49,971 nt of DNA, taken from Chthoniobacteraceae bacterium. GTDB taxonomy: Bacteria; Verrucomicrobiota; Verrucomicrobiia; Chthoniobacterales; Chthoniobacteraceae. The notes under the pieces were generated by a model. That model was given only the letters and a program-made list of their open reading frames with translations, ran no database searches and was not told where the DNA came from. The translations under genes and the position numbers were made by a program. Positions 19,792 through 45,278 of the stretch are shown here, piece after piece. Where the stretch lies: NCBI GenBank assembly GCA_947471505.1, contig CANIWM010000045.1, positions 1 through 49,971 of the forward strand. The letters run 5' to 3'. The first letter of the stretch is position 1. Each line of letters opens with the position of its first letter.

Positions 19792-19818
19792 GGGCACGGT
19801 TCACGGCGTGCCCCGTTT
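19792..19818 (+). repeat. Second copy of the MFS terminator hairpin
   Basis: GGGCACG (19792-19798) pairs with CGTGCCC (19807-19813), loop GTTCACGG, and is followed by CGTTTT. Loop and right arm match the hairpin at 19547-19578 (TTCACGGCGTGCCCCGTTTTGC is common to both), while the left arm is shorter. It seems to be a duplicated terminator segment or a repeat-borne hairpin. Confidence 0.6.
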
Positions 19819-19844
19819 TGCGTTTCGGGGGGAACGCAGTTCTT

Positions 19845-19895
19845 CCCGCAGATTTCGCAGTTTCCAATGCAGCGGAAATCTGCGAAATCTGCGGG
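19845..19895. repeat. Inverted-repeat intergenic element (copy 2)
   Basis: CCCGCAGATTTCGCAG (19845-19860), continued by TTTCC, is inverted at 19874-19895 with one extra base in the second arm. The core CCGCAGATTTCGC is shared with the element at 1827-1945. It ends just before the thioredoxin-like gene and would fold into a hairpin of about 20 pairs. Confidence 0.65.
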
Positions 19896-19939
19896 CCAAA
19901 ATGGTTGAATACGACACCAACGTGGCGGAGGGTCTGCGC

Positions 19940-20539
19940 ATGGCTCATCAATCTACCATGCTCGCACTCGGCACTCCGGTGCCTGAGTTTGCACTGCCGG
20001 ATGTTTCTATGGGAAAAGTCGTGAAGCTCGCCGACTTCCACGAGCGCCACGCTTTGCTCGTCATCTTCCTTTGCGCGCATTGCCCGTATGTCGTCCACGT
20101 CCTGCCGGAGCTTGTGCGGCTGGGGGCGGATTATCCGAAGCGGGGCGTGGGCATTGTCGGCATCACCTCCAACGACATCGCGCAATACCCGCAAGACGCG
20201 CCCATTCACATGGCCGCGCTCGCACGGAAAGAAGGGCTCACTTTCCCCATCCTCTACGACGCCACGCAGTCCGTCGCCAAAGCGTTCACTGCTGCATGCA
20301 CGCCCGATTTCTTCCTCTTCGACGGCGGTAAATGCCTCGCCTATCGCGGTCAGCTCGATGCCTCCCGCCCCGCGCGCGGCCCCGGACGCCCGGCGAACGG
20401 CGCGCTGGACGGCAACGACATCCGCGCTGCGCTGGATGCCGTCCTCGCGGGCTGGCCGGCGAACCCCGACCAGCGCCCCAGCATCGGCTGCAACATCAAG
20501 TGGAAGCCTGGCAACGAGCCCAGCTACTTCAGCCACTAA
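19940..20539 (+). CDS. Thioredoxin-like (AhpC/TSA-type) protein
   Basis: A 199-residue thioredoxin-fold protein of the group often annotated as thioredoxin family or redoxin. It has the AhpC/TSA-like start (LGTPVPEFALPDV), the motif CAHC (45-48) in LCAHCPYVVHV, then ITSNDIAQYP, the cis-Pro loop TPDFFLFD, and the group's ending PSIGCNIKWKPGNEP. I chose the ATG at 19940 because GGAGGG (19927-19932) lies seven bases upstream. The earlier ATG at 19901 sits right after a hairpin and has no such site. The next gene, a radical SAM protein, begins immediately after the stop codon. The redox partner is not visible, though trxB is encoded at 29 kb. Confidence 0.87.
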   Translation: MAHQSTMLALGTPVPEFALPDVSMGKVVKLADFHERHALLVIFLCAHCPYVVHVLPELVRLGADYPKRGVGIVGITSNDIAQYPQDAPIHMAALARKEGLTFPILYDATQSVAKAFTAACTPDFFLFDGGKCLAYRGQLDASRPARGPGRPANGALDGNDIRAALDAVLAGWPANPDQRPSIGCNIKWKPGNEPSYFSH

Positions 20540-21592
20540 ATGCGCCCGCCTGCACGCGGCGCGGGGTTTAACCCCGACAACCGATTCGCCGCCCAACACA
20601 TCGAGCTAGAGCCCGACGCCCGCGTGGACGACGAGGGCAAGCCGCTGCCGCTACGCACCACGTTCCTGCGCGACGACTCGCAGAGCATCATCTCTTGGAA
20701 CGACTCGCCCGACATCCCCTTCCGCGCCGGGCTGAACCCTTATCGCGGCTGCGAACACGGCTGCGCCTACTGCTACGCGCGGCCCACGCACGAGTATCTC
20801 GGCTACAGCGCCGGGCTCGACTTCGAGAGCCGCATCATGGTCAAACTGCGCGCCGCCGAGCTACTCCGCGCCGAGTTCAGCAAGAAATCGTGGACGCCCC
20901 AGACCATCATGATGAGCGGCGTCACCGACTGCTACCAACCCGTCGAGCGCCGCCTCGAGCTCACCCGCGCCTGCCTCGCCGTCCTCGCCGAGTTCCGCAA
21001 CCCCATCGGCATCGTCACGAAGAACCACCTCGTCACACGCGACACCGACCACCTCCGCGAACTCGCCAAATACAACGCCGCCGGAGTCGGCATCTCCATC
21101 ACCACTCTCGACGGCGACCTCGCCAAAATCCTCGAACCCCGCGCCAGCACGCCCACGCGCCGCCTCGCCGCCATCGAGGAACTCAGCGCCGCTGGCATCC
21201 CCGTCCGCCTCATGCTCGCCCCCATCATCCCCGGCCTGAACGACCACGAGATGCCCGCCATCCTTACCGCTGCGCGGAAAGCGGGCGCGCGCTTCGCCAG
21301 CTACACCATCCTCCGCCTCCCGCACGCCGTCGCCCCCATTTTCACCGCATGGCTCGAAGCCCATCGCCCCGGCGAAAAAGAGAAAATCCTCGGGCGCATC
21401 CGCGAACTCCGCCACGGCGCGCTCAACGTCTCCACCTTCAAAGAGCGGATGCGAGGGAGCGGCCCCGCCGCCGACCAAATCCGCCAACTCTTCGCCGTCG
21501 CAAAACGCCGCGCCGGATTCACTGAAATAGATCAGCCGCTAAACACCGCCGCCTTCCGAGTCCCCACGCAGCAGATGTCGCTGTTCGATTGA
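20540..21592 (+). CDS. PA0069-family radical SAM protein
   Basis: A 350-residue radical SAM enzyme of the PA0069 / SPL-like family. The iron-sulfur cluster motif is C71-x3-C75-x2-C78 in GCEHGCAYCYARPTHEYLG. ARCN-like and barrel blocks follow: IMMSGVTDCYQPVER, IVTKNHLVTRD, GVGISITTLD, EPRASTPTRRL and LMLAPIIPGLND. The ATG directly follows the stop of the thioredoxin-like gene with no gap, implying translational coupling. The family's reaction is not established; PA0069 relatives are compared with spore photoproduct lyase but lack proven activity. Membership is clear, function is not. Confidence 0.9.
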   Translation: MRPPARGAGFNPDNRFAAQHIELEPDARVDDEGKPLPLRTTFLRDDSQSIISWNDSPDIPFRAGLNPYRGCEHGCAYCYARPTHEYLGYSAGLDFESRIMVKLRAAELLRAEFSKKSWTPQTIMMSGVTDCYQPVERRLELTRACLAVLAEFRNPIGIVTKNHLVTRDTDHLRELAKYNAAGVGISITTLDGDLAKILEPRASTPTRRLAAIEELSAAGIPVRLMLAPIIPGLNDHEMPAILTAARKAGARFASYTILRLPHAVAPIFTAWLEAHRPGEKEKILGRIRELRHGALNVSTFKERMRGSGPAADQIRQLFAVAKRRAGFTEIDQPLNTAAFRVPTQQMSLFD

Positions 21593-21892: not shown

Positions 21893-22972
21893 TCACCGCC
21901 CCAGCCGCACGGGCTGCCGCTTCGAGCCCCAGTTACCGGGGCGCGGGTCGAAGTGGCCCGGAATCGTGGTGCCGCAGTGAGCGCAGGCATTTCCCCGCAG
22001 CGCCCATTTTCCAAGCTCATACCAGTCGCGCTCGATGATGACTTCGCCACAGCCAGGACACCAAGTGCTGCCGCCGGTGCGGTCGTGGACATTGCCCGTG
22101 TAAACGTAGCGCAGGCCCTTCGACATCGCGATGTCGCGAGCCCGTGTGAGCGTGGCGGGCGGAGTGTTGGGCTTGTCGCGCATTTTGAAGTCGGGGTGAA
22201 ATGCGCTGAAGTGCCACGGCACATCGGGGCCGAGGTTTTCGGCGATCCATTCGGCGGCGCGGTGCAGCTCGGCATCGCTGTCGTTCTCGCCGGGGATGAG
22301 CAGCGTGGTGATCTCAAACCAGACGTTCGTGTGGTGCCGGAGAAAGCGCAGCGTCTCCAGCACGGGAGCCAGCGCGCCGTAGCATTGGCGGTGGTAAAAC
22401 TCTTCGGTGAAGCCCTTGAGGTCCACGTTCGCGGCGTCCATCTCGCTGTAAAATTCCGCGCGTGCTTCGTCGGTGATGTAGCCAGCCGTAACGGCGACCG
22501 TTTTCACTCCCCACGAGCGGCATGCGCGAGCGACATCCAGCGCGTACTCGGCGAAGATGACCGGGTCGTTGTAGGTGAAGGCGACGGACCGACAACCAAG
22601 GCCCCGCGCGGCGTGGACGATGGTGGCGGGGCTGGCGGCGTCCATGAGTTTATCCATCTCGCGCGCTTTGCTGATGTCCCAGTTTTGGCAGAACTTGCAG
22701 CCGAGATTGCACCCCGCCGTGCCGAAGGAAAGGACGGGCGTGCCGGGGTAAAAGTGGTTCAGCGGTTTCTTCTCAATCGGGTCGATGCAGAAGCCGCTGC
22801 TGCGCCCGTAGGTGGTGAGGACGATGCGCCCTTCATGGACCTTGCGCACGAAGCAGAACCCGCGTTGCCCTTCGCGGAGCTTGCAGTATCTCGGGCAGAG
22901 TGTGCATTCGATGCGGCCATCCGCCAGCGGGCGCGACCAGCGGCCTGGGTGTGTGGATTCGGTGATGGGCAT
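21893..22972 (-). CDS. amrS: AmmeMemoRadiSam system radical SAM enzyme
   Basis: A 359-residue radical SAM protein of the AmrS/PflA-like group. The cluster motif is C88-x3-C92-x2-C95 in GCNLGCKFCQNWDIS. An N-terminal cysteine set (C23, C26, C30, C40, in CTLCPRYCKL) is typical of this group. FTYNDPVIFAEYALD, VTAGYITDEAR and DLKGFTEEFY are characteristic barrel motifs. The C-terminus adds a zinc ribbon with two pairs, CPGCGE and CAHCG, which not all family members have. It is five bases downstream of the fused LigB-AMMECR1 gene, so the two are cotranscribed. Function of the system is still debated; a redox or one-carbon chemistry role is only speculation. Confidence 0.93.
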   Translation of the reverse strand: MPITESTHPGRWSRPLADGRIECTLCPRYCKLREGQRGFCFVRKVHEGRIVLTTYGRSSGFCIDPIEKKPLNHFYPGTPVLSFGTAGCNLGCKFCQNWDISKAREMDKLMDAASPATIVHAARGLGCRSVAFTYNDPVIFAEYALDVARACRSWGVKTVAVTAGYITDEARAEFYSEMDAANVDLKGFTEEFYHRQCYGALAPVLETLRFLRHHTNVWFEITTLLIPGENDSDAELHRAAEWIAENLGPDVPWHFSAFHPDFKMRDKPNTPPATLTRARDIAMSKGLRYVYTGNVHDRTGGSTWCPGCGEVIIERDWYELGKWALRGNACAHCGTTIPGHFDPRPGNWGSKRQPVRLGR

Positions 22973-22977
22973 AGTGC

Positions 22978-24330
22978 TCAGTTCGGGCAGCCGGGTTCTT
23001 TGAACTTGTCCACGGCGTAGCGGACGAGAGTGACAGGCTCGACGGGGCTGATGCCGCCTTTTTCGCAGACGATGCGGAACTGCTGCTCGGCGGTGTCGAT
23101 GCCGACGAGCGCAGGCAGGAGCGTTGCGCGGCGTCCGTCGGCAGTGCGAACGATGACGCCGTAGCGCGCTGGGTCTAGCTCGGCTGGCGATGCGATGGGC
23201 TGGAAGGAGTGAAGCACGCTGACCTCGAAGCGGAGGTTGTGCAGCTCGACGCTGGTGACGCGCGGGAAACGCGGGTCGGCAAAGGCGGCACTGCGAGCGT
23301 TGAGCAGAGTCTCCTCGACGACGTTGGGCGTCTGCGGAGTCTCCAGCGAGCCGATGCAGCCCCGCAGTTTGCCACCGGAAGTCTTGATGGTGACGAAGAC
23401 GCCCGCCTGTTGCCGGAGGTAATCGCTGCCGGGCTCGGGGGCTGTGACATTTTCTCCCGCGAGGGTGGCCTCGACCACTCGACGGGCGAGGCGCGGGAGG
23501 TCTTCGCCGGTGGTGAACTCGTGCGAGCGATCCTGCGCGGCGGAGTAAAGAACGGCGACACCGTAGCCGACGCCGAATGGCCCTTCGTAGCTGAGCACGC
23601 GCCCGCCGTCAGTCTTCCAACCAGTCGCAGCAAGGGCGACGGCGGTAGAATCGACCACGTCTTCGGCAGCGCGCGCTTGGAGTCCGGGCGAAATGCGCTC
23701 GATGTCCCGGTATGCCTTGGCGCGCAGGAGCTCGATGAAGCGGGCGTCGAAGTCTTTGGCCGTCGGTTCGTAGCCCGCTGGCGCGCTGGGAATGAGGCGA
23801 TGGCTCATGTCGCCGCTGGCAATGACGGCAATCTTTTTCCCCAACGAATCCGCAGCCAGCGCGATGGCGTGGCCGATGCCATGAATGCCGCCCGCGCCCG
23901 GAGAATTGAGCGCGATGACAACAGTCGGCCCGCGCCATCCGGCTTCTGCGAGGAACCAAAGCGGGACCGCCGCGCCGTGGTCAAGATTTCCAGCGGGGAT
24001 ACCAGAAATCTGCACGCCAGCACGCGGCGCGACTCGGGCGAGTGCTTGGACAAACGCGGCATCCACAGGCAACGCAACGCCCTCATCGGGCGCACCAAAA
24101 GGCGCAAACGTCCCGCGCAGCTCAGCGCAATTCCAAACCCCAAACGCAAACGGCGAACGCGGCGAATGCGGGGAGATGAGCACAAGCGTCTCGGGCTGCG
24201 TAGCGACAATTTCGCGGGAAATCTCGCGCATTGCTGCGAGCGATGCGTCCACCTCGGCAAGGCGTTCGCGCCCGACGGCTGGGACGAGGATAGGGGGATG
24301 CGGCATGAGGGCGGCGATACTGATGTTCAT
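22978..24330 (-). CDS. Fused LigB/Memo-like dioxygenase and AMMECR1 protein
   Basis: A 450-residue protein that joins two members of the AmmeMemoRadiSam system. Residues 1-265 are a class III extradiol-dioxygenase/Memo-like domain with plausible metal or catalytic residues H11 (MPHPPI), H55 (SPHSPRS), H118 (LDHGAAVPLWFL) and the SGDMSHR block (172-178). Residues 270-450 are an AMMECR1 domain with its hallmark KLRGCIGSLE (GCIG at 324-327), ADPRFP and a C-terminal RYAVDKFKE. The radical SAM partner follows five bases later. Memo and AMMECR1 are usually separate proteins, so the fusion indicates physical contact between them. The N-terminal fold could be LigB-type dioxygenase or Memo; I favour LigB by the LDHG and SGDMSH motifs. 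Confidence 0.9.
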   Translation of the reverse strand: MNISIAALMPHPPILVPAVGRERLAEVDASLAAMREISREIVATQPETLVLISPHSPRSPFAFGVWNCAELRGTFAPFGAPDEGVALPVDAAFVQALARVAPRAGVQISGIPAGNLDHGAAVPLWFLAEAGWRGPTVVIALNSPGAGGIHGIGHAIALAADSLGKKIAVIASGDMSHRLIPSAPAGYEPTAKDFDARFIELLRAKAYRDIERISPGLQARAAEDVVDSTAVALAATGWKTDGGRVLSYEGPFGVGYGVAVLYSAAQDRSHEFTTGEDLPRLARRVVEATLAGENVTAPEPGSDYLRQQAGVFVTIKTSGGKLRGCIGSLETPQTPNVVEETLLNARSAAFADPRFPRVTSVELHNLRFEVSVLHSFQPIASPAELDPARYGVIVRTADGRRATLLPALVGIDTAEQQFRIVCEKGGISPVEPVTLVRYAVDKFKEPGCPN

Positions 24331-24473: not shown

Positions 24474-27400
24474 GTGACTAAATATCCCGCCGCTTTTTTC
24501 TTCATCGCGATTTCCGCGCCGGTGCATGCCGCGCCTGTGGACTTCAATCGCGATGTCCGGCCTATTCTCTCGGAAAACTGCTTTTACTGCCACGGGCAGG
24601 ACCCGAATAAACGCGAGGCCGACCTGCGCCTGGACGTCCGCGATGTGGCGCTGAAGCTGAAGGCGTTTGTGCCGGGCAATGCGGACGCGAGTGAGCTCAT
24701 CACGCGAATCAATACCGACGACCGCGACGACCTCATGCCGCCGCCAAAGTCGAACCGCCGCCTTTCGCCCGCGCAGAAGGAAACGCTGAAGCGGTGGATC
24801 AGCGAAGGCGCGAATTATTCGCAGCACTGGGCCTACGTGCCGCCCGCCCGCCTGCAAGCGCCGGCGGTGAAGAACCCGGCATCGGCGCGCAACCCGATTG
24901 ACGGGTTCGTTTTGGAAAAACTGGACGCGGCGGGTTTGCAGCCATCGCCGGAAGCGAGCCGCGAGACGCTCATCCGGCGGCTGTCGCTCGACCTCATCGG
25001 GCTCCCGCCAAAGCCGGAGGAAGTGGACGCTTTTGTCGCCGATACTTCGCCGGACGCTTATGAAAAGGTCGTCGAGCGGCTGCTCGCGTCGCCGCACTAC
25101 GGCGAACGGATGTCGCTCCCGTGGCTCGATGCGGCGCGTTATGCGGACAGCAACGGCTTTCAGCAGGATGGCGACACGCATCAGTATTTCTGGCGCGATT
25201 GGGTGGTGAAGGCGCTCAATGCGGACATGCCGTTCGACCAGTTCAGCATCGAACAACTCGCGGGCGATTTGCTGCCGAACCCCACGGAGGAACAGCTCGT
25301 CGCGACGGCGTTTAATCGAAACCATTTGCTCAACGGCGAGGGCGGCGCGATTCCCGAGGAACAGCGCAACGTGATCCTGTTTGACCGCATGGATACGACG
25401 GCGACGAACTGGCTCGGCCTCACGATGGCGTGCACGCAATGCCACGACCATAAATACGACCCCATCACCCAGCGCGATTACTACTCGATGCTCGCGATGT
25501 TTAACAATGTGCCCGAGTCCGGCACGCCGTCCGGCGGCGGACAGTATCGCATCGCGGATCCTTCGATCACGGTCGGCACGGACGAGGAAAAAGCGAAGCT
25601 CAAATCGCTGGAGGCCGCACTCGCCGAAGCGAAGAAAACGGAGGGCGCTGCGGAGAAATCGCCCGAAACTGCGGCCGCTTACGAGGCTGCGGAGAAAGAC
25701 CTCCTCGACGACAAGCCGGTCGAGTGGACCGTGCTCACGCCGCAGTCGATGACCGCCACGGGCGACGCAATGCTGAGCGTGCTCGACGACCAGTCGATCT
25801 TCGCCGACGGCCCAAGCCCGGATAAATCGAACTACACTATCACGCTCCCCGCGGGCAGCGTGCCGATCACTGGCTTTCGCATCGAGACCATCCCGGATCG
25901 CCGCCTGCCAAAAAAAGGCGCAGGCCGCGGAGACAGCGGGAACGCCGTGCTCACGAAGCTCCGGGTAAAAGCAGGCGGCGCGGAAGTGAAGCTCAACGCC
26001 GCGAGCGCCACGTATTCGCAGGGCGGATTCTCGCCGCAGGGAGTCATCGACGACGACCCGAATACTGCGTGGGCATTTTTCCCCGAGACCACAAAGCCAT
26101 ACATCCTCATCGTGCAATGCGCCGCGCCGATTGCCACGCCTGCGGATGGAAAAGTGGAGCTCACCTTCGAGTTTCAGTCGGCGAACAAACAGCACACGCT
26201 GGGACGTTTTCGCATTGCCTCGACCGGAGCGCCGCAGCCCGCATCGCGCAAGGCGCTGCCCGACGAAATCGCGGCGATCGTGAAGAAACCGGAGCGCTCG
26301 AAAGACGAGGCGAAGAAGCTCCGCGATTACGTTTCCAAAAACGCCGCACCCGCCGCGCTCGTCGCCGCTCGCGACAAAACAAAAGCCGCCGACAAGGCGA
26401 TGAACGACTTCAAACAGAATCTGCCGCGCGTAATGGTCATGAGCGATTCCAAGCCACGGAAATCGCACATCCTCAGTCGCGGCGAATACCTCCAGCCAAA
26501 GGACGAAGTGACGATGAGCACGCCCGCTTTTCTCGCGCCGATGCCTGCCGAAGCGCCGCGCAACCGGCTCGGATTTGCGCGCTGGCTTTTCCAGCCCGAG
26601 CATCCGCTGACTGCGCGCGTCCAGATGAACCGCATGTGGCAGTACTTCTTCGGCGTGGGCATCGTGAAGACCGTCGAAGACCTCGGCGTGCAAAGCGAAG
26701 TGCCAGTGCATCAACCGCTACTCGACTGGCTCTCCGTCGAGTTTCGCGAAAAGGGCTGGAGCCAGAAACACATGGTCCGCCTCATCGTGAATAGCGCGAC
26801 ATACCGACAAAGCAGTCGTGTTTCCAAAGAACTCGTCGCCCGCGATCCCGAGAACCGGCTCTTTGCACGCGCCTCGCGGTTCCGCTCGCCGTCGATGGTT
26901 CTCCGCGATGTTGCGCTCGCCGCGAGCGGACTGCTGGATACACGCATGGGCGGCAAGCCGGTTTATCCGTACCAGCCGGGCGAAGTGTGGGAGACGCTCG
27001 GCATTACGAAGGAGCGCGATTTTACGTATCCGGGCTCGAAAGGCAGCGACCTCTACCGGCGCAGCATTTACACATTCTGGCGGCGCACGATCGGCCCCGT
27101 GAACATGTTCGACGCGTCGTCGCGCCAAGTCTGCAAAGTGCGCGGCGGCACGACGTCCACACCGCTCCACGCGCTCACCACGCTGAACGATCCCACCTGG
27201 GCCGAAGCCTCGCGCGTCCTCGCGCAACACGCCATGGAAAACGCGCCGGATACTGCCGCGCGCACGACGTGGGCATTCCGCCGCGTGCTCGGCCGCGTGC
27301 CAAAGCCGGAGCAACTCGCCATTCTCCAGCGGGCATACGAAAAACAACTCGTCTTCTACACGCAGGACGCGAAAGCCGCCGAGGCCGCAGTCGCCATCGG

Positions 27401-27503
27401 CACCGCACCGCGCGCAGAAAAACTCAACACCGCCGAGCACGCCGCCATGAGCGCCGTGTGCCTCGCCATCCTCAACCTCGACCAAGCACTCACACGCGAA
27501 TGA
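24474..27503 (+). CDS. PSCyt1-DUF1549-DUF1553 cytochrome-type protein
   Basis: A 1009-residue exported protein typical of the PVC superphylum. After a signal peptide (KYPAAFFFIAISAPVHAA), a PSCyt1 haem domain carries CFYCH (C36-H40). DUF1549 follows (about 145-350) with a second haem-like site CTQCH (C320-H324) in a CTQCHDHKYDPI block. A beta-rich region and a coiled, charged region (about 600-665) lead to DUF1553 (about 690-985), with FARWLFQPEHPLTARV, NRMWQYFFG and FLxRT-like endings. The GTG at 24474 is used. The DUF1501 gene downstream overlaps by four bases. Such pairs are abundant in these genomes; their reactions are unproven, though extracellular polysaccharide or sugar oxidation is usually proposed. 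Confidence 0.93.
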   Translation: MTKYPAAFFFIAISAPVHAAPVDFNRDVRPILSENCFYCHGQDPNKREADLRLDVRDVALKLKAFVPGNADASELITRINTDDRDDLMPPPKSNRRLSPAQKETLKRWISEGANYSQHWAYVPPARLQAPAVKNPASARNPIDGFVLEKLDAAGLQPSPEASRETLIRRLSLDLIGLPPKPEEVDAFVADTSPDAYEKVVERLLASPHYGERMSLPWLDAARYADSNGFQQDGDTHQYFWRDWVVKALNADMPFDQFSIEQLAGDLLPNPTEEQLVATAFNRNHLLNGEGGAIPEEQRNVILFDRMDTTATNWLGLTMACTQCHDHKYDPITQRDYYSMLAMFNNVPESGTPSGGGQYRIADPSITVGTDEEKAKLKSLEAALAEAKKTEGAAEKSPETAAAYEAAEKDLLDDKPVEWTVLTPQSMTATGDAMLSVLDDQSIFADGPSPDKSNYTITLPAGSVPITGFRIETIPDRRLPKKGAGRGDSGNAVLTKLRVKAGGAEVKLNAASATYSQGGFSPQGVIDDDPNTAWAFFPETTKPYILIVQCAAPIATPADGKVELTFEFQSANKQHTLGRFRIASTGAPQPASRKALPDEIAAIVKKPERSKDEAKKLRDYVSKNAAPAALVAARDKTKAADKAMNDFKQNLPRVMVMSDSKPRKSHILSRGEYLQPKDEVTMSTPAFLAPMPAEAPRNRLGFARWLFQPEHPLTARVQMNRMWQYFFGVGIVKTVEDLGVQSEVPVHQPLLDWLSVEFREKGWSQKHMVRLIVNSATYRQSSRVSKELVARDPENRLFARASRFRSPSMVLRDVALAASGLLDTRMGGKPVYPYQPGEVWETLGITKERDFTYPGSKGSDLYRRSIYTFWRRTIGPVNMFDASSRQVCKVRGGTTSTPLHALTTLNDPTWAEASRVLAQHAMENAPDTAARTTWAFRRVLGRVPKPEQLAILQRAYEKQLVFYTQDAKAAEAAVAIGTAPRAEKLNTAEHAAMSAVCLAILNLDQALTRE

Positions 27504-28939
27504 ACCCTGACTTCCAAACCAACATCGACCGCGTCAACCGCCGGCAATTCTTCGGACGCGCGGCACAAGGAATCGGCGGCGCGGCGCTGGCCTCGCTGCT
27601 TACCGGAAACGGCACGGCTGCCGAGACACTTCCCGGGCTTCCGCACTTCGCGCCGAAGGCCAAGCGCGTCGTCTGCCTTTGGCAGGGCGGCGGATGCTCG
27701 CACGTCGATCTTTTCGACCCGAAGCCGACCCTCACAAAGATGCAGGGCCAGGACATTCCCGCCAGCGTCCGCGGGACCACGCGGCTCTCGACGATGACGT
27801 CGGGCGCTTCGAGATGGCCGATGGTCGGACCGATCAAACCCTTCCAAAAATACGGCCAGTGTGGAATGGAACTCAGCTCGATGCTTCCGAGCCTCGGCAA
27901 ACTCGCCGACGACATCTGCCTCGTCCGCTCCATGCACACGGAAGCCGTGAATCACGCGCCGGGCGTCACCTTTTTCATGACGGGTTCGCAGGTTCCCGGA
28001 CGCCCCAGCCTCGGCTCGTGGCTGACGTACGGCCTCGGCTGCGAGAGCCAGGACCTTCCGGCTTACGTCGTGATGACCTCGTCGGACAAAGGCAAAACGT
28101 GCGGGCAGCTTTTCTACGATTACTATTGGGGCTCCGGCTTTCTCCCGAGCCGATTCCAAGGCGTGCGCCTGCGCAATACCGGCGACCCTGTGCCGTATCT
28201 CGAAAGCCCCGCGGGCACCACGCACACTTCCCGCCGTGCGCTGCTCGACGACATTCGCGCGCTCAACGAAGAGCACCTCGCGGACTACGGCGACCCCGAG
28301 ATCGACACGCGCATTTCGCAATACGAAATGGCCTACCGCATGCAGACGAGCGTGCCCGACCTCATGGATTTCTCAAAGGAGCCGAAGAGCGTCATCGAGC
28401 GCTACGGCCCAGATGCATTGGTGAAAGGAACCTTCGCCAACAACTGCCTCATCGCCCGCCGGCTGCTCGAACGCGGCGTTCGCTTCGTCCAGCTCATGCA
28501 TGCCGGATGGGACCAGCACGGCAACCTCTTCACCCAACTCGAAGTCCAGTGCCGCGACACCGAAGTCCCAGCCGCCGCGCTCATCGCCGACCTCAAAGAG
28601 CGCGGTCTTCTCGATGACACACTCGTCTATTGGGGCAACGAATTTGGCCGCACGCCGTTTGGCCAGGGCGACCCCGCCAAGCCCAACGGACGCGACCACT
28701 TTGGCCGCGCATACAGCGTCTTCCTCGCCGGCGGCGGCGTCCGCGGCGGCACCGTCTATGGCGAGACCGATGAATTCGCATGGAACATCGTCCGCGACCC
28801 CGTGCACGTCCATGACATGCAAGCCACCATCATGCATCTCTGCGGCATCAACCACGAAGCCTTCACCTTCCGTTATCAAGGCCGCCAATTCCGACTCACC
28901 GACGTCCACGGACACCCGGTAAAAGGCATCATCGCGTAA
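27500..28939 (+). CDS. DUF1501 family Tat-exported protein
   Basis: A 479-residue DUF1501 protein, a member of the sulfatase/alkaline phosphatase-like superfamily. The N-terminus has a Tat-type signal with RRQFFGRAAQGIGGAALASLL (residues 14-34). The body includes the usual CLWQGGGCSHVDLFDPKP, YGQCGMELS, HAPGVTFFMTG, WDQHGN, GNEFGRTPF and GRDHFGRAY blocks. The ATG overlaps the upstream DUF1553 stop (ATGA), so translation is coupled. The two proteins are a recurring pair in Planctomycetes and Verrucomicrobiota. A role in extracytoplasmic degradation of sulfated or complex polysaccharides is suggested for related clusters, but this gene has no sulfatase signature I can identify. Confidence 0.93.
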   Translation: MNPDFQTNIDRVNRRQFFGRAAQGIGGAALASLLTGNGTAAETLPGLPHFAPKAKRVVCLWQGGGCSHVDLFDPKPTLTKMQGQDIPASVRGTTRLSTMTSGASRWPMVGPIKPFQKYGQCGMELSSMLPSLGKLADDICLVRSMHTEAVNHAPGVTFFMTGSQVPGRPSLGSWLTYGLGCESQDLPAYVVMTSSDKGKTCGQLFYDYYWGSGFLPSRFQGVRLRNTGDPVPYLESPAGTTHTSRRALLDDIRALNEEHLADYGDPEIDTRISQYEMAYRMQTSVPDLMDFSKEPKSVIERYGPDALVKGTFANNCLIARRLLERGVRFVQLMHAGWDQHGNLFTQLEVQCRDTEVPAAALIADLKERGLLDDTLVYWGNEFGRTPFGQGDPAKPNGRDHFGRAYSVFLAGGGVRGGTVYGETDEFAWNIVRDPVHVHDMQATIMHLCGINHEAFTFRYQGRQFRLTDVHGHPVKGIIA

Positions 28940-29026
28940 AATCGGGCTGAGCAGGAATAACTGCCTCATTTTCCACTCCCATGCTTGCCCGCGACGCCGG
29001 GACCTGATTTCACAGCACCTCATTTT

Positions 29027-29956
29027 ATGGAAAAAGTCATCATTCTCGGGACCGGCTGCGCTGGTCTTACCGCCGCAATTTACGCCGCTCGCGCCAATCT
29101 CAGCCCGCTCGTCCTCGAAGGCGCGGAGCCCGGCGGGCAGCTTTCCACGACGACACTGGTGGAGAACTATCCCGGCTTTCGCGATGGAGTGATGGGGCCG
29201 GAGCTTATCATGAATATGAAGGCGCAAGCAGAACGGTTCGGCGCTCGCTTTCAATACGCGGAATGCACGGGGCTCAAGCGCGGCGAGGGGCATGTGAGCG
29301 TGGAGGTGGAGGGCGAATGGATCGACACTGGCTCGCTCATCGTCGCCAGCGGTGCCAGCGCAAAATGGCTCGGGCTCGACCGCGAGCGCGAGCTGCGCGG
29401 GCATGGACTGACGAGCTGCGCGACGTGCGACGGGGCGTTCTACCGCAACGTGCCGGTGTGCGTCGTCGGCGGCGGCGACTCGGCGGCGGAAGAGGCTACG
29501 TTCCTCACCCGCTTCGCCAGCAAAGTGTATCTCATCCATCGCCGCGACACGCTGCGTGCGTCGAAGGTCATGATCCAGCGCGTGCTGGATAATCCGAAGG
29601 TCGAACCCGTCTGGAACTCCGCCCCGACCGAGTATCTCACGGACGACGAAGGCCATGTCCGCGCGGTGAAACTCAAAAACCTCGTGTCCGGCGTGGAGAG
29701 CGAACTGGAGATGAAGTGCGTCTTCGTCGCCATCGGCCACACGCCGAATACCGCGCCGTTCAAAGGCATCCTCGACCTCGATGAAAACGGCTACCTTTTG
29801 CAGCAACCCGGCAGCACCGCGACGAACATCCCCGGCGTCTTCGCAGCAGGCGACGTGAGCGACCATCGCTACCGGCAAGCAGTCACCGCAAGCGGCCAAG
29901 GCTGCGCCGCCGCGCTGGATGCCGAGCGTTACCTCGCGGACATCGGGGTGCATTGA
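29027..29956 (+). CDS. trxB: Thioredoxin reductase
   Basis: A 309-residue FAD/NADPH thioredoxin reductase of the low-molecular-weight type. The FAD-binding loop is GTGCAGLTAA (8-17), the active-site disulfide is C131/C134 in TSCATCDGAFYR, the NADPH loop is GGGDSAAEEA, and GVFAAGDVSDHRYRQAVTA closes the FAD domain. The ATG at 29027 (MEKVIILGTG) fits the family. It keeps thioredoxins reduced in the cytoplasm. The gap before it, after the DUF1501 gene, shows no terminator. The downstream glycosyltransferase frame is in phase with trxB, separated by its TGA. Confidence 0.96.
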   Translation: MEKVIILGTGCAGLTAAIYAARANLSPLVLEGAEPGGQLSTTTLVENYPGFRDGVMGPELIMNMKAQAERFGARFQYAECTGLKRGEGHVSVEVEGEWIDTGSLIVASGASAKWLGLDRERELRGHGLTSCATCDGAFYRNVPVCVVGGGDSAAEEATFLTRFASKVYLIHRRDTLRASKVMIQRVLDNPKVEPVWNSAPTEYLTDDEGHVRAVKLKNLVSGVESELEMKCVFVAIGHTPNTAPFKGILDLDENGYLLQQPGSTATNIPGVFAAGDVSDHRYRQAVTASGQGCAAALDAERYLADIGVH

Positions 29957-34986: not shown

Positions 34987-37900
34987 TTATGCCTTGCGGC
35001 GGCGGCGTTGGAGACCGAGGAGCATTCCGACACCTCCGAGGAGCATGGCGACGGCGCCGGGCTCTGGGACTATAACGATGTCGTTGTTGTTCGATCCGCC
35101 TGCGTAGGAGATGGATAACGCATTGCCGGAGACAACGAATGCGTCGCCTTCTGCAAGCGGCGTGCCGAGGTATGTGAAGCCAAATCCGCCGAGATTTACT
35201 GGATCGGTGCCGTCGTTGTTCACGAGCGTGAAGGACCCGCCGGACGGGTCGAACGCGCCGAGGTCAATCGTCAGCGGGGTGTTCGCGGTGAAGGCAACGG
35301 TGCCGGTGACGTTGAGCTGGTCATAGCCAGTGCCTGCGGTACTTCCAAATATCTCGATTGCAGCAGTGCCTCCGTTAAAGCTGGTGTTACCCGCGTTGAG
35401 GATGCCAGGGCTGACGCCGGGAGCGAGAGTCCCACCTGCATCTAGGCTGAGGCTGCCAACGCTACCGATGCCTCCGAGGGTGCCGGTGCCGGACACGGTG
35501 ACAGCGCTGCCGCTGATACTTCCGGAGACTCGGAGGACGCCGTCGCTGATAAGCGTCGCGCCGGTCGTGGTGCTGGTTCCGCCGAGTTCGAGAATGCCCG
35601 CGCCACTCTTGGTGAGGCTGGTCAATCCGGTGATTGTGCCGCCGTAAACGGTGCTTCCAGACTGGTTCACTACGAGCGACCCGGCTGCGACGCTGTTAAT
35701 CACTCCGGTCGCTCCTTTTAGGCCTGCCACTGTTTGGGCCGTGCCATTGAGGTCCACGGTGCCGCCGTTCATGTCGAGCGTGGTCGCTGTAGATAAAATG
35801 CCGGTCGCGCTGACACGGAGAGTGCCTGCACTGACCTTGGTCTCTCCCTGCCAGTCGTTGAGGGCGCTTTGCAGTTCTACGGTGCCGGTGGTGAGCTTCT
35901 CGAAGCCTTGCGCTCCGGTTACTTTCCCGCCGAGGTTGAGCAGCAATCCCACACCGGGGCTGACCCGGTTGGTCGTTCCCGTTCCGCTAAGGGTGATGGT
36001 GCCGTTCCAGCTATTGGTATTGTTGTTGGTCGCGAGGATACCGCCGTTGATTTCGATGTCCTTAGTGTTGGTCTGGCCTCCGAAGGTATTCAGGGTGCCG
36101 GCCGAGTTGATGATTATTTTGTGCGCCGCACTTCCGAGATTGTTCGAGCTCTGGACGCCAAATGTGCCGCCATCAATGACGATGTTGCCGACGGTTGCGC
36201 CTGCGTTTGGTGCCCACCACGTTTCATTCGCGCCCACTTTGGTGAGGGTGAAAGTGCCGCCGTTAATGGTGGTGCCGCCAGTGCCGCCGTTGAGATCGTA
36301 GCGGTTGATTCCGCCGATCGACGTGTCGCCGGTGAGGTTGAGGGTGCCATAGACCGGGTTGTTAGTCTGACCGCCGCCGCTGTTCCAGATGGCAGCCTGG
36401 CCGGCCACACCCGCGCCGGAAACGCTGACGACGTAACGGGTCGCGGCGTTGTTCGCCACGCCGCCGACATCGAGCGTCGCCCCGTTGGCGATGGTGACCG
36501 CGGTGTTCGTGCCCATTGCGGTGTTAGAGCCGAGCTTTAGGACACCGCCATTGATCGTGGTGGCTCCCGTCTGGGAATTCACCCCGGATATAGTCAATGA
36601 ACCAATGCCTTCCTTGGTAAGCGCAACAGCGCCTGTCAGCACGCTGGCGTAGGTGGTCGTGCTCGACTGATTCACCGTCAGAGTTGCGGCTGTGGTGCTG
36701 GTGATGGATTTTCCGGTCGTGTTCGCGCCGACGGTCGTCGGATTCGAGGCGAGGCTGCCGACGGTTTGACTAAAACCATCCAGAGCGAGGACCGCAGTGT
36801 TGGCATCGTTTTGGCCCAAGACCAAGTTCGATGCGGCAGGGAGGGCGCCATTGGCCCCCATGCGCACCGTGCCGACTAGAACGCCCGTGGTGAGCCAGTC
36901 ATTGCCCGTCGAATTGATTGTCCATGAGTTGGCATCGGTTTTGGAGAGTTGGGCACCTGGAAGCGTGATCATTCCGTTCACCACTCCATTGCCAGCAGCG
37001 CCGCGGAGGAAAAATACGGAGCTAGGTCCGTTGAATCCACCGCCGCCGGCCGTCACGTTTCCGTTCAGGGTCAACGTTCCGTTTGTGATACTCATCTGAA
37101 CGATCGTTGTTCCAGATGCGGTTATCGGGCCATTGATTGTTGAGTTTCCGGTGTTCGTCACCTGCGAGCGTAGGCTAATCGCTCCATTAAGAAACGAGGT
37201 CATATTCAGCGTCGTTGCCCCAAGGAGCGTCACACCATTCAAGGTCAGCGTCGTGGCGTTCCCGGTTACACCCGCTGCTGGGTAGTTCAGCGTGATGGAT
37301 GAAGCGTTCGGCACCGATGCTTGCGAGGCGAAGTTCAGGGTTGAGAGCCCCGTCCCAATTGAATCAACTGTGATGGCGCCCGTGTAAGCCGAGTTGTTGC
37401 TTCCCGACAAAAGGAACGTTCCACCGCCAGCGAGCGTGCTATTGAGGGCGAGCGCTCCACTTCCACTGAGGTTGCCTGGGATGGTGATGGTCGCCGCAGT
37501 TGCGTTGCGATGCGAGATCGTCCCGCCACCCGTGCCAATTGCAATGTTTCGGTTAGTCCCGAGGTTTGCAGCGACCGCGCCGGTGTAGGCGAGCGTGCCG
37601 CCATTGCTCAGGGATATCGTGTTGCCTACTCCACCACCACCGAGACTCACTGGGTCTGCGATGCTCAGGATGCCGGCTCGGACGGTTGTCTTGCCCGGGT
37701 AGGTGTTTGGACCGACTAGAGTGAACGTTGTGGAGCCATCTTTCTCGATCGCGCCACCGGCGATCCCTGCACCGGTCGAAGTGAGCGTGAAGTTATTCGT
37801 TGTGCCGCTCACTTGCACAAGCGCCGGCGCGACGCCTGCGGTGACGGTGACTGCTGTGCCACCGACTGATGTGTCGTCAAATGTCACCACGTCGGCGCTG

Positions 37901-40900
37901 AAGAATTTGTCGGGCGCATTCGCATTGGCAGAATCGCCCCAGTTTGTCGTCGTATTGACGTCCCATGTGCTGCCGCCCGCTGCAAGCCAGACAAGCGCTT
38001 TCGTATTACTAATGACGACGTCCACCGCCGTAGGGCCTTCGTTCACGACGGCGCTGCGATAGTTTGCAGCGCCAGCGAGGCTGAAGGTGCCAGAACCGCT
38101 TTTCGACCCAAAGCTAAGGGCGGGATATGTTCCATCTCCCGGAACCGGCGCGGAGAAATCGAGCACGGTGTTGGCTGGCGCATTGAGCGTCGTTGCAGTG
38201 AGCGCACCGCTCGGGGTCGGGTTGAAGAACAGAGTCGTTCCTGTCGTTGTGCCCAGGGTGAGAACATCGACAGTCGGCTCGCCAGAGAGGATCGCGCCAT
38301 CGGCCACAGTGATGCTCGAAGTTGCCCCGAGCGCTCCATTCACGTTGAGGCGTCCAGCCGAGACGGTGATTGGCCCTGTGTAGCCAGAGCTAGCGCCGCT
38401 CAGCGTCGTTATGCCAGCGCCGATCTTGTTGACTGGGTTTGCACCAGAAAGTGAAGGCGAGATTCCTTGGAGGCCTGCCGTCGAAAGGTTGATCGCGCCA
38501 CCGCCAGTCAAGGCCAGCGTGCCGGTGCCGCGAATATCCCGGGACAATGTGAACGCATTCGTCGCACCGTTTGTGTCGAGCGTCGTGGTCGATGCAGCAA
38601 CAGTGTCCACCGTAACATCAAGCGGGACTGTGAGGTTCGCTCCTGTGTTTCCGGCGGGTCCGCCCGTGCCAGTGTTGTCCACCCGGATGGTGCCGCCGCC
38701 AAAGCTGACTGCGTATGAGCCTTCGTTGCCGGTAATATTGCCGCTGCGCATTCCCCATGCACTGCGGAGGTTCAAGATTGCTGAGCCGCTGATGTTATAC
38801 CGGTCAATACCGTCGGGCGTGTTTACCCCCGGTCCGGTCGCGACACGGTTATCGAGGACAATCCAGTTTGTCGTCACCGTCCCGCCGGTATGGTTCATCA
38901 CGCCCGTTCCGTCGTTTCCGAGATAGATACCACCACCCAGAATCGTGACCGTCGCGAGCGCGTTGATGTTGTTGTCGCCCGTCGCGCTCACTCCGCCGCC
39001 CGTCGCGGTCGATGGCGTCAGGAGCGGTGATGCACCCGTGAGGGTAAGGTTGCCACCAGACAGGTTGTAAACCGACGTATTGTTCGGGAAGTGACCGAGT
39101 CGAAGCTGGGCATCGACATTTACGGCGGATCCAGCGGCTTGGTTGACGATGCCGATGCCTCCGGAAACCTGACCCGCGAAGAAGGTTTTCGCAGTCACAG
39201 TGGATCCATTGTTGATGTTCAGGGTATTCGCTACGTTGACCGCTAGACCAAGTCCCAGTTGGACGAAATCCGCGTTAACATTCGCTGTGTTGTTCAAATT
39301 GACCGTCGCACCCGGCGCGTTGGAGCCAACATTAAAGTTCTGAGCCGTGACATTCCCGGTGAGGCTCGTCACTGTGTTGGCACGAGCTTGACCGAAGCGG
39401 AGGTTCCCCCCCGATGCCGTTGTTCCGAGCGTTATGGCGTTGCCGGCGTTATCGAAGCCCGCTCCTGTTGTGTCAAAGTCGATGAACGTCGTTGTGAAGG
39501 TACCATCAGCCGTGATGGTCTGGCCCGACGTAAGGGTGTAGCCGTCCGAGCGATCAAATCCGAGGACGCCGTTGCTCGCGGCATCACCATGAATGGTGAC
39601 GGTGCCGACACCGAGCGTGCCCGCAGTGCCGCCACTGCCGATATTGAGCCGCTGCGATCCCGCAGTTCCGCCCGAATTGATCCAGACGTTGTTTAACGGC
39701 GACGCACCCGTGTTGTTTGTGCCAGTGAAGATGATCGTAGTCCCATTACTACCGCCGCCGATAACGAGTAAATCCGATGAGTTGGTTACGCCGACGCTCC
39801 CCGAAACAGTCGCCGTCCCATTGAAACTTTGGATCTTGGCGTTGCCGTTCAGTGTGAGAGTTCCGGCGAGCGTTGCACCACCATCGATCCGGATCGCTCC
39901 GATCCCTCCGTATGTGAACCCAGTGCCCCCGACCGGCGTGCCACCTGCCGCTTCAGCGTAGCCAGTGCCGGTAATGGTGATGTTGTTGGTGTAGGTGTTA
40001 TTCGCCAGCCAGAGCTGACCTCCATTGTCCACCTGAACGGCAGCCGTGCCGAGCGTCGTCGGAGTCATCGACGCGTTTGTTCGGAAACTGCCAAGTCCCG
40101 CTGCGCCCACATTACTCGGCGAGAGCTTCCACAGGCCGGAAAATCCGGTGTTCGTTCCAGTAATCGCGACGTCACGCACTGCGGTGCCTGCTGCCGTATG
40201 CGGGTCGATCACAACCGTACCTGCACCAGAAATGTTGCGGTTGAAAGTGATGTTGCCGTCGTCGCGCGTGAGGTTGAGCGTTGCACCAGATGCCACGCTC
40301 ACTCCGCTCGTGGCGGAAAGCACCACATTGCCCGTCACATCATGGTCCAATTCGAGCGTGCCATTCGAGATTGTGGTCGCGCCGACATAGGCATTCGCCG
40401 TGCGAAGCGTGACGACGCCGTTGCCGGTCTTCGTCAGACCAGTGGCTCCATTGATACCTATGGCGCTCGCAGCGGCGACGGTATATGGCGTCGCGATCGT
40501 GTTTGTGAACTCGACACTGTTCGGCACCACGTTGCTCACGAGCGTCACTGCACCCGCCGTCGCACCCGTCGGTGAATCTTGGAAAACGACCGCGTCACCT
40601 TCGAAATAGTTCGTCGAGGTGCCCCCGAGTTGCGTCAGCCAGTTCGCCGTCGTGTTAATGTTCCAGTTGCCATCGGTGGTCGCGTCCCAGACCACTTTAT
40701 CATTTCCGGTGACGGTAAGCGCAATGGCAGTACCTGTGTCGGAAAGCGAACCAAGAACGTGGCCGGGCAGCGTGCCAAGCGCAAACCCACCCAAGCCCGG
40801 CGAAGTGCCTGTGTAGTTGATCAGCGGATAGGTCGTGCTCGCCGCGAGCAAGCCGCCCTGCTGAATAAGGTTGAAGGTCGCAGTGCCCGCAGTGGTGACG

Positions 40901-43797: not shown

Positions 43798-43850
43798 GGC
43801 GGTGCGTTTCGGAGTGAGTTTTTTTGATGTAATGGGTTGAGGTACTGGTA

Positions 43851-43878
43851 CTGATAAAAGATTCCAGCGATGTGACAA
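43851..43878 (-). promoter_or_regulatory. Putative promoter of the giant repeat-protein gene
   Basis: On the minus strand TTGTCA (43873-43878) is followed by a 16-base spacer and TATCAG (43851-43856). Upstream of the -35 there is an AT-rich run, GATTTTTTAATTCG in plus-strand view, resembling an UP element. The predicted leader is about 45-50 bases and has no obvious Shine-Dalgarno sequence. Confidence 0.45.
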
Positions 43879-43961
43879 CTGATTTTTTAATTCGTGTGTA
43901 ATATTTTTTCCACTCGGTAACGCGCTTGGCATTCTCCGAGGCGGATGGCACGGTACGCCAT

Positions 43962-45278
43962 ATGGATGATCCCTTTTCTGAACACGGGTTTTTACATGGT
44001 GTAGACGCTGCAACTCTATGGTCGTGGGTCGCGCGGCAGCGGTGGTTTGGCGGCAAGGCGCGCACGGTGAAGTCCTGGGCGGTGCGCAATACGCTGGCAG
44101 CAGGCGACGCGCTTTTGCTGGCGCTGGGGGTGACGTATGCCGATGGCAACGAGACTTATCTCGTGCCACTCGGCTGGGCAGCGAGCGCGCCGGAGGAGGC
44201 CGTCGTTTTTAAGAAAGGGCGTGAGGTGTTGTGTGATGCCACGGTTTTGCCCGAGTTTCGCGACTGGCTTTTCCGTGCGCTCGTGCCCGGCGTGGCGCTG
44301 CGTAGGCTGTTTCGCGAGGGCGAACTGCCGCCGTCGCGCGTGCTGAAGGCGGAGCAGAGCAATACGGCGCTCATCTACGGCGAGCGGCTATTTGTGAAGC
44401 TCTACCGTCGCCTCGTCGCCGGCGCGAACCCCGATGCGGAGCTGACGCAATTTCTCTCCGAAGCGAGCGGGTTTCGGAATGTTTGCGGGTTTGGCGGGAC
44501 GGTGACTTGGGACGGTGCGGCTGTCGCTTTGGCCACAGAATTGACGGCAAATAAAGGCGATGCGTGGCCTCTCGCGCTCGCCGCCGCTCGGGAGTTCTAC
44601 GCCACGGGAAAGCTGGGCGATTGGCTGGGCAAGGCCGCCCTGCTTGGCCGACGCACGGGCGAGATGCACACGGCGCTGGCAGCGGCGGCGGGTGAGGACT
44701 TCGTGGCCGAGCCATTTGACGATGAGGATTTGCGCGGACTACGGGCAGAAATTGCGCGACTGGAATCGACCGACCGCACCGCTCTCGCCGAGCGCATCGC
44801 ATCGCTCTCGGAAACGGCAGCATCCTTGGCCCAGCGCTATCTGGCGAGCCCGGTGGAACGCTTTCATATCGAGCTCCCCGACGGCGCAGTGAAGACGCGC
44901 ACCCATGGCGACTATCACCTCGGGCAAGTGCTGTGGACGGGGGCGGATTTTGTCATCATTGATTTTGAAGGAGAGCCCTCGCGTTCCCTCGCCGAGCGCC
45001 GGGCCAAACGCTCGCCCCTGCGCGACGTCGCGGGGATGCTCCGCTCTTTCCACTACGCAGCACACGCGGCAGCAGCGAGCGGTGACGCAGCGGCAGAACA
45101 ATGGGCGGCGGATTCACAAGTTGCGTTCCTGGCAGCGTGGCAAGAGGCCGCACCGAGCCTCGCACCGGGGCTCGGCCTCCTGCCTCTGTTCGCGGCGGAA
45201 AAAGCCCTCTACGAACTAGCCTACGAGCTGAATAACCGCCCAGACTGGATCCGCATCCCGCTTCAGGCGCTGGCGTAA
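43962..45278 (+). CDS. Maltokinase-like protein (APH-fold sugar kinase)
   Basis: A 438-residue protein resembling actinobacterial maltokinase and the kinase part of TreS-Pep2 fusions. RQRWFGGKART (26-36), TRTHGDYHLGQVLW with D317 as likely catalytic base, and IIDFEGEPSRSLAERRAKRSPLRDVAGMLRS with metal-binding D334 are present. Maltokinase turns maltose into maltose-1-phosphate for the GlgE glucan route. No treS or glgE is in the window. I use the ATG at 43962; a TTG 12 codons upstream in frame is an alternative. It is divergent from the giant protein. Activity on maltose is a family inference. Confidence 0.85.
   Translation: MDDPFSEHGFLHGVDAATLWSWVARQRWFGGKARTVKSWAVRNTLAAGDALLLALGVTYADGNETYLVPLGWAASAPEEAVVFKKGREVLCDATVLPEFRDWLFRALVPGVALRRLFREGELPPSRVLKAEQSNTALIYGERLFVKLYRRLVAGANPDAELTQFLSEASGFRNVCGFGGTVTWDGAAVALATELTANKGDAWPLALAAAREFYATGKLGDWLGKAALLGRRTGEMHTALAAAAGEDFVAEPFDDEDLRGLRAEIARLESTDRTALAERIASLSETAASLAQRYLASPVERFHIELPDGAVKTRTHGDYHLGQVLWTGADFVIIDFEGEPSRSLAERRAKRSPLRDVAGMLRSFHYAAHAAAASGDAAAEQWAADSQVAFLAAWQEAAPSLAPGLGLLPLFAAEKALYELAYELNNRPDWIRIPLQALA

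Follow-up and report, generated by a model that had tools for sequence, protein, structure and literature searches.

The AmmeMemoRadiSam system is named after three components: protein A (AMMECR1, TIGR04335), protein B (Memo, TIGR04336) and a radical SAM enzyme (TIGR04337). Memo and AMMECR1 are both conserved up to humans, and we know of no activity for any member of the system. The iron ligands listed in PMC11081632 (eLife 2024) are H13/H62/E251 in aminophenol dioxygenase, H12/H61/E242 in LigB and H49/H81/C244 in MEMO1. The authors of that paper report that dioxygenase activity was not detected for MEMO1, a result with no direct bearing on LigB-AMMECR1 proteins. In a table passage of PMC13386939, AMMECR1 outranks the other anaerobe-indicating Pfam families by weight, with values of 3.38 and 50.66 in columns taken to give the percentages of aerobes and of anaerobes. 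A literature search over titles and the first lines of abstracts returned no paper on LigB-AMMECR1 fusions. They may be described in the study of Memo-AMMECR1 systems by Burroughs and colleagues (2019), which PMC7159879 cites.

The window is a stretch of 49,971 nucleotides from a Chthoniobacteraceae bacterium (phylum Verrucomicrobiota). Its minus strand encodes a protein in which a LigB-type domain is fused to AMMECR1, followed directly by the gene of a radical SAM enzyme. The pair is read here as a LigB-type variant of the AmmeMemoRadiSam system with a proposed shared function, and this explanation as a whole is given a probability of about 0.65. The identity of the pair as such a variant is by itself well supported and very probably correct; the chemical steps proposed below are a tentative working guess. 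The computed support consists of the domain assignments, the co-occurrence of the genes, the common lineage of AMMECR1 and its metal-site partner, and the partner changes of the radical SAM enzyme. The features of the locus are as follows.

22978..24330, minus strand: LigB-AMMECR1 fusion protein ('AB module'), 450 aa + stop (ORF, Pfam, NCBIfam, AlphaFold2 model)
23557..24315, minus strand: LigB-type domain, residues 6-258 (Pfam LigB; VIA-align to 3VSH_B and MEMO1 7KQ8_A)
24298..24300, minus strand: His11, predicted metal ligand (His in 80/82 LigB domains, 2 gaps; aligns with H13 of 3VSG_B)
24166..24168, minus strand: His55, predicted metal ligand (His in 81/82, 1 gap; aligns with H62 of 3VSG_B)
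23800..23802, minus strand: His177, predicted second-sphere His (His in 82/82 LigB domains)
23659..23664, minus strand: Glu223-Asp224, of which Glu223 is the predicted third ligand and Asp224 aligns with the Memo Cys (alignments)
23002..23493, minus strand: AMMECR1 domain, residues 280-443 (Pfam 136.5 bits, cut-off 25; VIA-align Z 22.1 to PH0010, 1VAJ)
23350..23364, minus strand: Arg323-Gly-Cys325-x-Gly327 motif of AMMECR1 (conservation in aligned rows)
21893..22972, minus strand: AmmeMemoRadiSam radical SAM enzyme, 359 aa + stop (TIGR04337; Cys motifs)

The fusion frame runs from an ATG start to a TGA stop and encodes 450 residues without interruption, with LigB preceding AMMECR1 in the Pfam assignment. 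The preliminary description had placed the radical SAM gene five bases past the fusion stop on the same strand, and this spacing is read directly from the sequence: gcact separates the tga from the atg. The same open fusion is present in three further assemblies of the genus, in frames of 453, 466 and 531 codons, and the nearest homologue in the genus is 96% identical and has no breaks. The AlphaFold2 model of the fusion, built from an input alignment of 52 sequences, includes both domains with a mean pLDDT of 94.1; its pTM is 0.78, and the arrangement of the predicted domains is less sure than the domains themselves. A frame error, which had been named as a possible origin of the fusion, is excluded, as is an assembly artefact, by the open copies in the genus, by the single frame found at 58 of the 80 LigB loci described below, and by the AlphaFold2 model.

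Both halves of the polypeptide are what they had been taken for at the level of Pfam families: the N-terminal half matches LigB (PF02900) with 110.8 bits against a cut-off of 26.3, and the C-terminal half matches AMMECR1 with the score listed above. All 52 fused proteins scanned match PF02900 at E up to 0.001. The preliminary description had called the N-terminal domain LigB/Memo-like, and the second part of this label does not hold for the window. Pfam Memo (PF01875) gives no match to the domain up to E = 1, and AmmeMemoSam_B (TIGR04336) reaches only 16.3 bits in the fusion, under its cut-off of 26. Among the 52 fused relatives, Pfam Memo matches seven at E up to 0.001, one of them above the cut-off (L167, 27.8 against 27). 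At the same E-value the NCBIfam model of protein A matches each of the 52 fused proteins and that of protein B 25 of them, so the curated models already reach LigB-AMMECR1 fusions.

The fold of residues 1-269 of the model is closest to TK2203 (5HEE; VIA-align Z 30.9), followed by aminophenol 1,6-dioxygenase (3VSH_B; 29.8), 3,4-dihydroxyphenylacetate 2,3-dioxygenase (8IQ8; 26.7) and LigAB (1BOU; 23.4). MEMO1 (7KQ8, 7L5C) has the same superfamily fold and aligns with Z of 18.6-18.9 at 10-11% identity, and comparison of the LigB-type profile with that of bacterial Memo gives a probability of 95.6-96.4%. The domain has the fold of the class III extradiol dioxygenases in common with them, as well as the alignment of two His and one Glu with aminophenol dioxygenase. 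Unlike these enzymes, members of the family of the window come with AMMECR1 and a radical SAM enzyme, by fusion or by linkage, have a second acid or a Cys at residue 224, and also occur in anaerobes. 'Dioxygenase' is only a fold label for the LigB-type domain.

The AMMECR1 half matches AmmeMemoSam_A (TIGR04335) with 114.4 bits against a cut-off of 99, which makes it a member of the protein A family, and residues 271-448 of the model match the structure of PH0010. Cys325 is present in all 124 aligned AMMECR1 rows, 60 with LigB in the frame and 64 others. R323, G324, C325 and G327 are invariant across 52 fused proteins.

The radical SAM protein scores 630.5 bits with AmmeMemoSam_rS (TIGR04337; cut-off 220) and is aligned over positions 2-349 of the 349 in the model. 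Its CX3CX2C cluster motif is formed by Cys 88, 92 and 95; further cysteines are found near the N-terminus (23, 26, 30 and 40) and in a C-terminal ribbon (305/308 and 330/333). The preliminary description had spoken of an extra C-terminal zinc ribbon. The ribbon is there, but it is an ordinary feature: of 99 related enzymes, 90 share the C-terminal CxxC...CxxC ribbon, and the CX3CX2C motif and the N-terminal four-Cys motif are each present in 97. Internal stops in the radical SAM matches proved to be ordinary terminators after the ribbon in the 10 loci read (L052 left out). With the AmmeMemoSam_A and AmmeMemoSam_rS models both above their cut-offs, the AmmeMemoRadiSam context proposed earlier for the locus is borne out.

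The chief rival to the mechanism proposed below is that the radical SAM protein is a PflA-like activase, that the RGCxG loop of AMMECR1 receives a radical or a modification, and that LigB or Memo provides the metal site of the finished enzyme. This would agree with the tight linkage of the genes, with the invariance of the four residues of the loop, and with the matches of the radical SAM protein to PflA in the PDB and to the PflA-type model TIGR02493, the latter at 51.6 bits and below the cut-off of 231.75. The likeness to PflA, however, lies at the level of the superfamily and is common to radical SAM enzymes acting on small molecules, such as MoaA, and the Pfam and NCBIfam scans returned no glycyl-radical family for the fusion. 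An activase of this kind is considered rather unlikely.

The two His and one Glu pattern of the iron site is found in the LigB domain of the window by sequence alignment. The predicted third ligand, which aligns with E251 of the aminophenol dioxygenase chain 3VSG_B, is Glu in 78 of 82 LigB domains and Gln in four; residue 224 is Asp in 57 and Cys in 25, and D174 is kept in all 82. His177 is the predicted counterpart of LigB His195 and of Memo His192. In Memo itself, two His and a Cys are invariant across 52 rows. Profile-profile alignment pairs this Cys with residue 224, not 223 (probabilities 95.6 and 96.4), and the window has Asp224 in that column in place of the Memo-type third ligand. A structure alignment in PMC11081632 pairs MEMO1 C244 with LigB E242, one residue away from the profile pairing. 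With either pairing, the family has the predicted dioxygenase ligand plus a neighbouring position occupied by Asp or Cys throughout the 82 domains. The likely metal site comprises two His and Glu; the residue next to this Glu, Asp or Cys, takes the place of the iron-binding Cys of Memo. The site of the window differs from that of MEMO1, where C244 is the iron ligand according to PMC11081632, in having Glu/Asp. The Cys form (ECG, as opposed to the ED form of the window) occurs in Bacillota, in two Actinomycetota MAGs, in three unassigned bacteria and in the genome G133. Four Acidobacteriota LigB proteins (L129, L135, L139, L141) have Gln-Asp instead of Glu223-Asp224, and the counterpart of Asp224 would be the sole acid of the pair in them.

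That the fusion is a degenerate or moonlighting copy with a metal site that does not work is very improbable. The distribution is indeed patchy, AMMECR1 being found in 8 of 197 genomes of the order of the window and the LigB fusion in 4 of the 10 genomes listed for the genus. Against this, the ligand and second-sphere residues are nearly invariant over the 82 sequences and intact in the window, and the closest copy in the genus is, as stated above, unbroken.

Like the AmmeMemoRadiSam system as named, the locus has protein A and the radical SAM enzyme encoded by adjacent genes; in contrast to it, the LigB-type domain is fused to protein A and no Memo was found in the genome. Memo gave 0 matches in the genome of the window, which is 96.7% complete, in a search that found it in 5 of 14 named control genomes. 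The search for Memo covered 53 distinct genomes with LigB-AMMECR1, of which 50 were searched as a set (53 handles minus three repeats, the genomes of L099, L100 and L101 being G426, G430 and G363, to judge by COX1 matches at identical places) and the other three are the genomes of the window, G099 and G133. Memo is present in 10 of the 53, that is, in 10 of the 50, counting matches of more than 90 bits, and in none of the three. Within the set, 16 genomes have any Memo match and 11 have one above the Memo cut-off of 27. Ten matches score 130 bits or more; the remaining six are weak (18-28 bits, one at 28.3 and just above the cut-off), lie in frames of 440-492 codons, and are taken to be the LigB-AMMECR1 fusion itself, three of them because they have the same radical SAM neighbour as a fusion (L189/L167, L190/L173, L191/L159) and those of G515, G516 and G521 because of the frame length. 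A radical SAM protein above the TIGR04337 cut-off was found in all 51 LigB-AMMECR1 genomes searched (in G490 and G497 by partial matches), and the enzyme is also present in the genomes of the window and of G099. By these numbers, the radical SAM enzyme accompanies the fusion, and Memo is usually absent. The replacement of Memo by LigB is not strict, since the ten genomes keep Memo too. Linkage and co-occurrence suggest that the components may form one biochemical system here.

Among 288 genomes drawn from the phylum, 140 have AMMECR1 and 146 have Memo, and 134 of the 140 AMMECR1 genomes also have Memo. The LigB fusion is present in three of the six that lack it (the genome of the window, G099 and G133; the others are G218, G232 and G266). 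The components had been described as normally separate, which is not the case in this draw: among the 150 AMMECR1 matches listed, 78 share a frame with Memo, as judged by a Memo match on the same contig with the same frame length. The remaining matches listed are 67 in frames of their own of less than 350 codons and 5 in other long frames. The fusion-frequency survey, which had been suggested earlier, thus finds fusion of proteins A and B in about half of the cases listed; what is unusual within the phylum is the identity of the partner, LigB, and not the fusion itself. The Memo-AMMECR1 fusions of the phylum (e.g. L062, L064) have the same domain order as the window, in frames of about 500 codons, and a TIGR04337-like enzyme is encoded close by in eight such loci. 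They differ in the metal site, which has two His and Cys there (52 rows) and two His and Glu223-Asp224 in the window.

An alignment scan of named genomes with the LigB domain gave 223 relatives, of which the best 80 were analysed. By title, their hosts are Verrucomicrobiota, Planctomycetota, Acidobacteriota, Myxococcota, Gemmatimonadota, Bacillota and a few others, mostly metagenome-assembled; the LigB-type variant of the AmmeMemoRadiSam system occurs in several phyla. The contents of the loci were scored by profiles built from the loci. LigB and AMMECR1 are in a single frame at 58 of these 80 loci, which were chosen by LigB similarity, i.e. on the trait. A TIGR04337-like gene is in view at 58 loci as well (47 fused and 11 not), and Memo at none of the 80. 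At the 47 fused loci, the radical SAM gene lies downstream on the same strand in 46 cases and upstream in one; the other 11 fused loci have no radical SAM gene in view. Among the 22 unfused loci, AMMECR1 lies beside LigB in six, with a radical SAM gene also in view (L123, L129, L135, L139, L141 and L166). The three proteins have neighbouring genes of their own there, so the fusion joins parts which also exist apart. At the remaining 16 unfused loci, LigB is alone, is beside AMMECR1 with no radical SAM gene in view, or is cut by the end of the contig. An AMMECR1 match is present in 14 of the 16 genomes of these loci (partial for L119); some of these matches, which lie in long frames of a different contig, may be part of a different module. 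A search of 72,556 plasmid records with the LigB domain gave 0 matches.

Two further arrangements were seen among the relatives. In five Holophagaceae/Holophagales loci (L140, L144, L149, L153, L175) the LigB gene directly adjoins the radical SAM gene or overlaps it, and AMMECR1 is absent from the locus; it is found elsewhere in the genome in four of the five. The G133 locus (L196, 796-2184) encodes an ECG fusion of the Bacillota kind, the end of which is overlapped by a short radical SAM gene. G133 belongs to the phylum of the window and has no Memo or COX1 match, and its fusion looks like a gene transfer.

The trees of the two proteins differ in how they follow the partner. Partner labels were taken from neighbours within 1.5 kb, and the loci were picked by LigB or family similarity. 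In the AMMECR1 tree of 119 rows, Memo-partnered and LigB-partnered rows are separated by one split (100/100; 200/200 bootstrap trees), and the same single branch is found in a tree of 118 rows with an SH-aLRT of 100. Twelve rows without a partner in view were dropped from both trees, and the two-state count is still one when they are included. The AMMECR1 halves of the Memo fusions and of the LigB fusions thus lie on opposite sides of one branch, and the split by partner counts as one event. In contrast, the radical SAM tree of 77 rows, from which 22 rows without a partner in view were dropped and which includes the long rows L061 and L064, has three partner changes. They are forced by the starred branches, and none of 200 bootstrap trees has a single change. 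Within the LigB-linked part of this tree there is a Memo-linked group (L033, L034, L036, L039, L047). We read these trees as pointing to two AB modules, each apparently inherited as a unit and exchanged beside one kind of radical SAM enzyme.

Based on these findings, the following working scheme is proposed. A single polypeptide would supply both the metal-site partner (LigB, in the slot of Memo) and the AMMECR1 partner, and would act together with the dedicated radical SAM enzyme, the gene of which comes directly downstream. His11, His55 and Glu223 would hold one Fe(II). The radical SAM enzyme would make a 5'-deoxyadenosyl radical and start a radical reaction, acting either on a substrate which is processed by the AB module or on one of the module's own residues. 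The substrate may be bound across the domain interface, between the iron site and the invariant Cys325 of AMMECR1. The AB module would then finish the reaction without O2, and the iron would probably be a Lewis acid or an electron-transfer site. An O2-dependent ring-cleaving centre is disfavoured, since strict anaerobes have fusions of this kind too, and with the His/His/Glu pattern unchanged.

The LigB half could instead be a true O2-dependent extradiol dioxygenase of aromatic degradation, with AMMECR1 as an accessory and a radical SAM gene that is a neighbour by chance. The Pfam LigB match, the two-His-one-Glu pattern, which is that of the dioxygenases, and the two dioxygenases that come directly after TK2203 among the PDB folds all agree with this, as does the presence of a haem-copper oxidase gene in 35 of the 37 carriers of the ED type. 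Against this, the radical SAM enzyme is encoded in 51 of 51 genomes and is a neighbour across several phyla. The family is, moreover, found in Moorella thermoacetica and Syntrophomonas (loci L158, L152, L171). Moorella and Syntrophomonas are strict anaerobes, and COX1 has no match in the genomes of L158 (Moorella) and L152 (Syntrophomonas), which argues against O2 as an obligatory co-substrate. The neighbouring genes also speak against a dioxygenase of this kind: no aromatic-degradation family stood out in the families listed, 25 of 48 upstream and 25 of 56 downstream. An O2-dependent dioxygenase is therefore considered improbable.

The neighbours were also considered as a clue to the substrate. 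Scanned were 66 of 76 upstream and 58 of 69 downstream neighbours, with 10 and 11 left out. Amidase_3 (PF01520, N-acetylmuramoyl-L-alanine amidase) is the only frequent family, being found in 14 of the 66 upstream neighbours; downstream, no family is found in more than 3 of the 58. The amidase flanks, assigned by an identity of 36% or more to the neighbour in L158, are those of L145, L147, L152, L155, L158, L160 and L167, and further of L168, L171, L172, L173, L176, L177 and L178. Since these are Bacillota loci, the amidase was taken as local synteny and no pathway was deduced from it.

Returning to the LigB-type AmmeMemoRadiSam variant, residue 224 goes with the haem-copper oxidase gene. In 53 rows, COX1 is present with 35 ED proteins and absent with two (L104, L113); it is present with two ECG proteins (L151, L155) and absent with 14. 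Fisher's test on these raw counts gives p of about 5e-9. Residue 224, however, changes only twice on the AMMECR1 tree and an independent-pairs test is not significant, so that the association is indistinguishable from shared descent and is kept as a hypothesis. L130 and L136 (Acidobacteriota, ED, with COX1) nest in the ECG clade, which is one further change in the expected direction. COX1 is also present in 21 of the 134 AMMECR1-plus-Memo genomes of the phylum draw, again as a single split. The use of Memo in genomes with COX1 counts against a simple oxygen reading.

A speculative extension, which is doubtful as it stands, is that the AB modules are interchangeable and that their iron centre is tuned by one residue. 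Memo would have Cys; the LigB-type ECG form, mostly of Bacillota and of other genomes that lack a haem-copper oxidase gene, would have Glu and Cys; and the ED form, mostly of genomes with one, would have Glu and Asp. By exchanging a thiolate for a carboxylate, a single reaction that needs no O2 would then have been adapted to life in the presence of oxygen, and the LigB domain would be no dioxygenase here.

The locus represents a natural version of the system in which Memo is exchanged for a domain of a well-studied iron family, within one polypeptide and beside the radical SAM partner. The whole module can be purified, and Glu/Asp, Glu/Cys and Cys centres can be compared with related radical SAM partners for a shared chemistry. 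The better understood metal site thus offers a handle on what the AmmeMemoRadiSam system does.

The surroundings of the pair in the window contain several other genes. A PSCyt1-PSCyt2-PSD1 (DUF1549/DUF1553) gene and then a DUF1501 gene (24474-28939, plus strand) point away from the fusion gene; the start codons listed for the fusion gene and the PSCyt1-PSCyt2-PSD1 gene are about 140 bases apart. The DUF1501 gene is followed by that of a pyridine nucleotide-disulphide oxidoreductase at 28985-29956. On the other side, a further radical SAM gene, which is of a different kind (Pfam Radical_SAM, 70.8 bits; 20540-21592, plus strand), converges on the AmmeMemoRadiSam pair and is directly preceded by a Redoxin/AhpC-TSA gene at 19808-20539. 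An open frame of 3060 codons is located at 34987-44169 on the minus strand.
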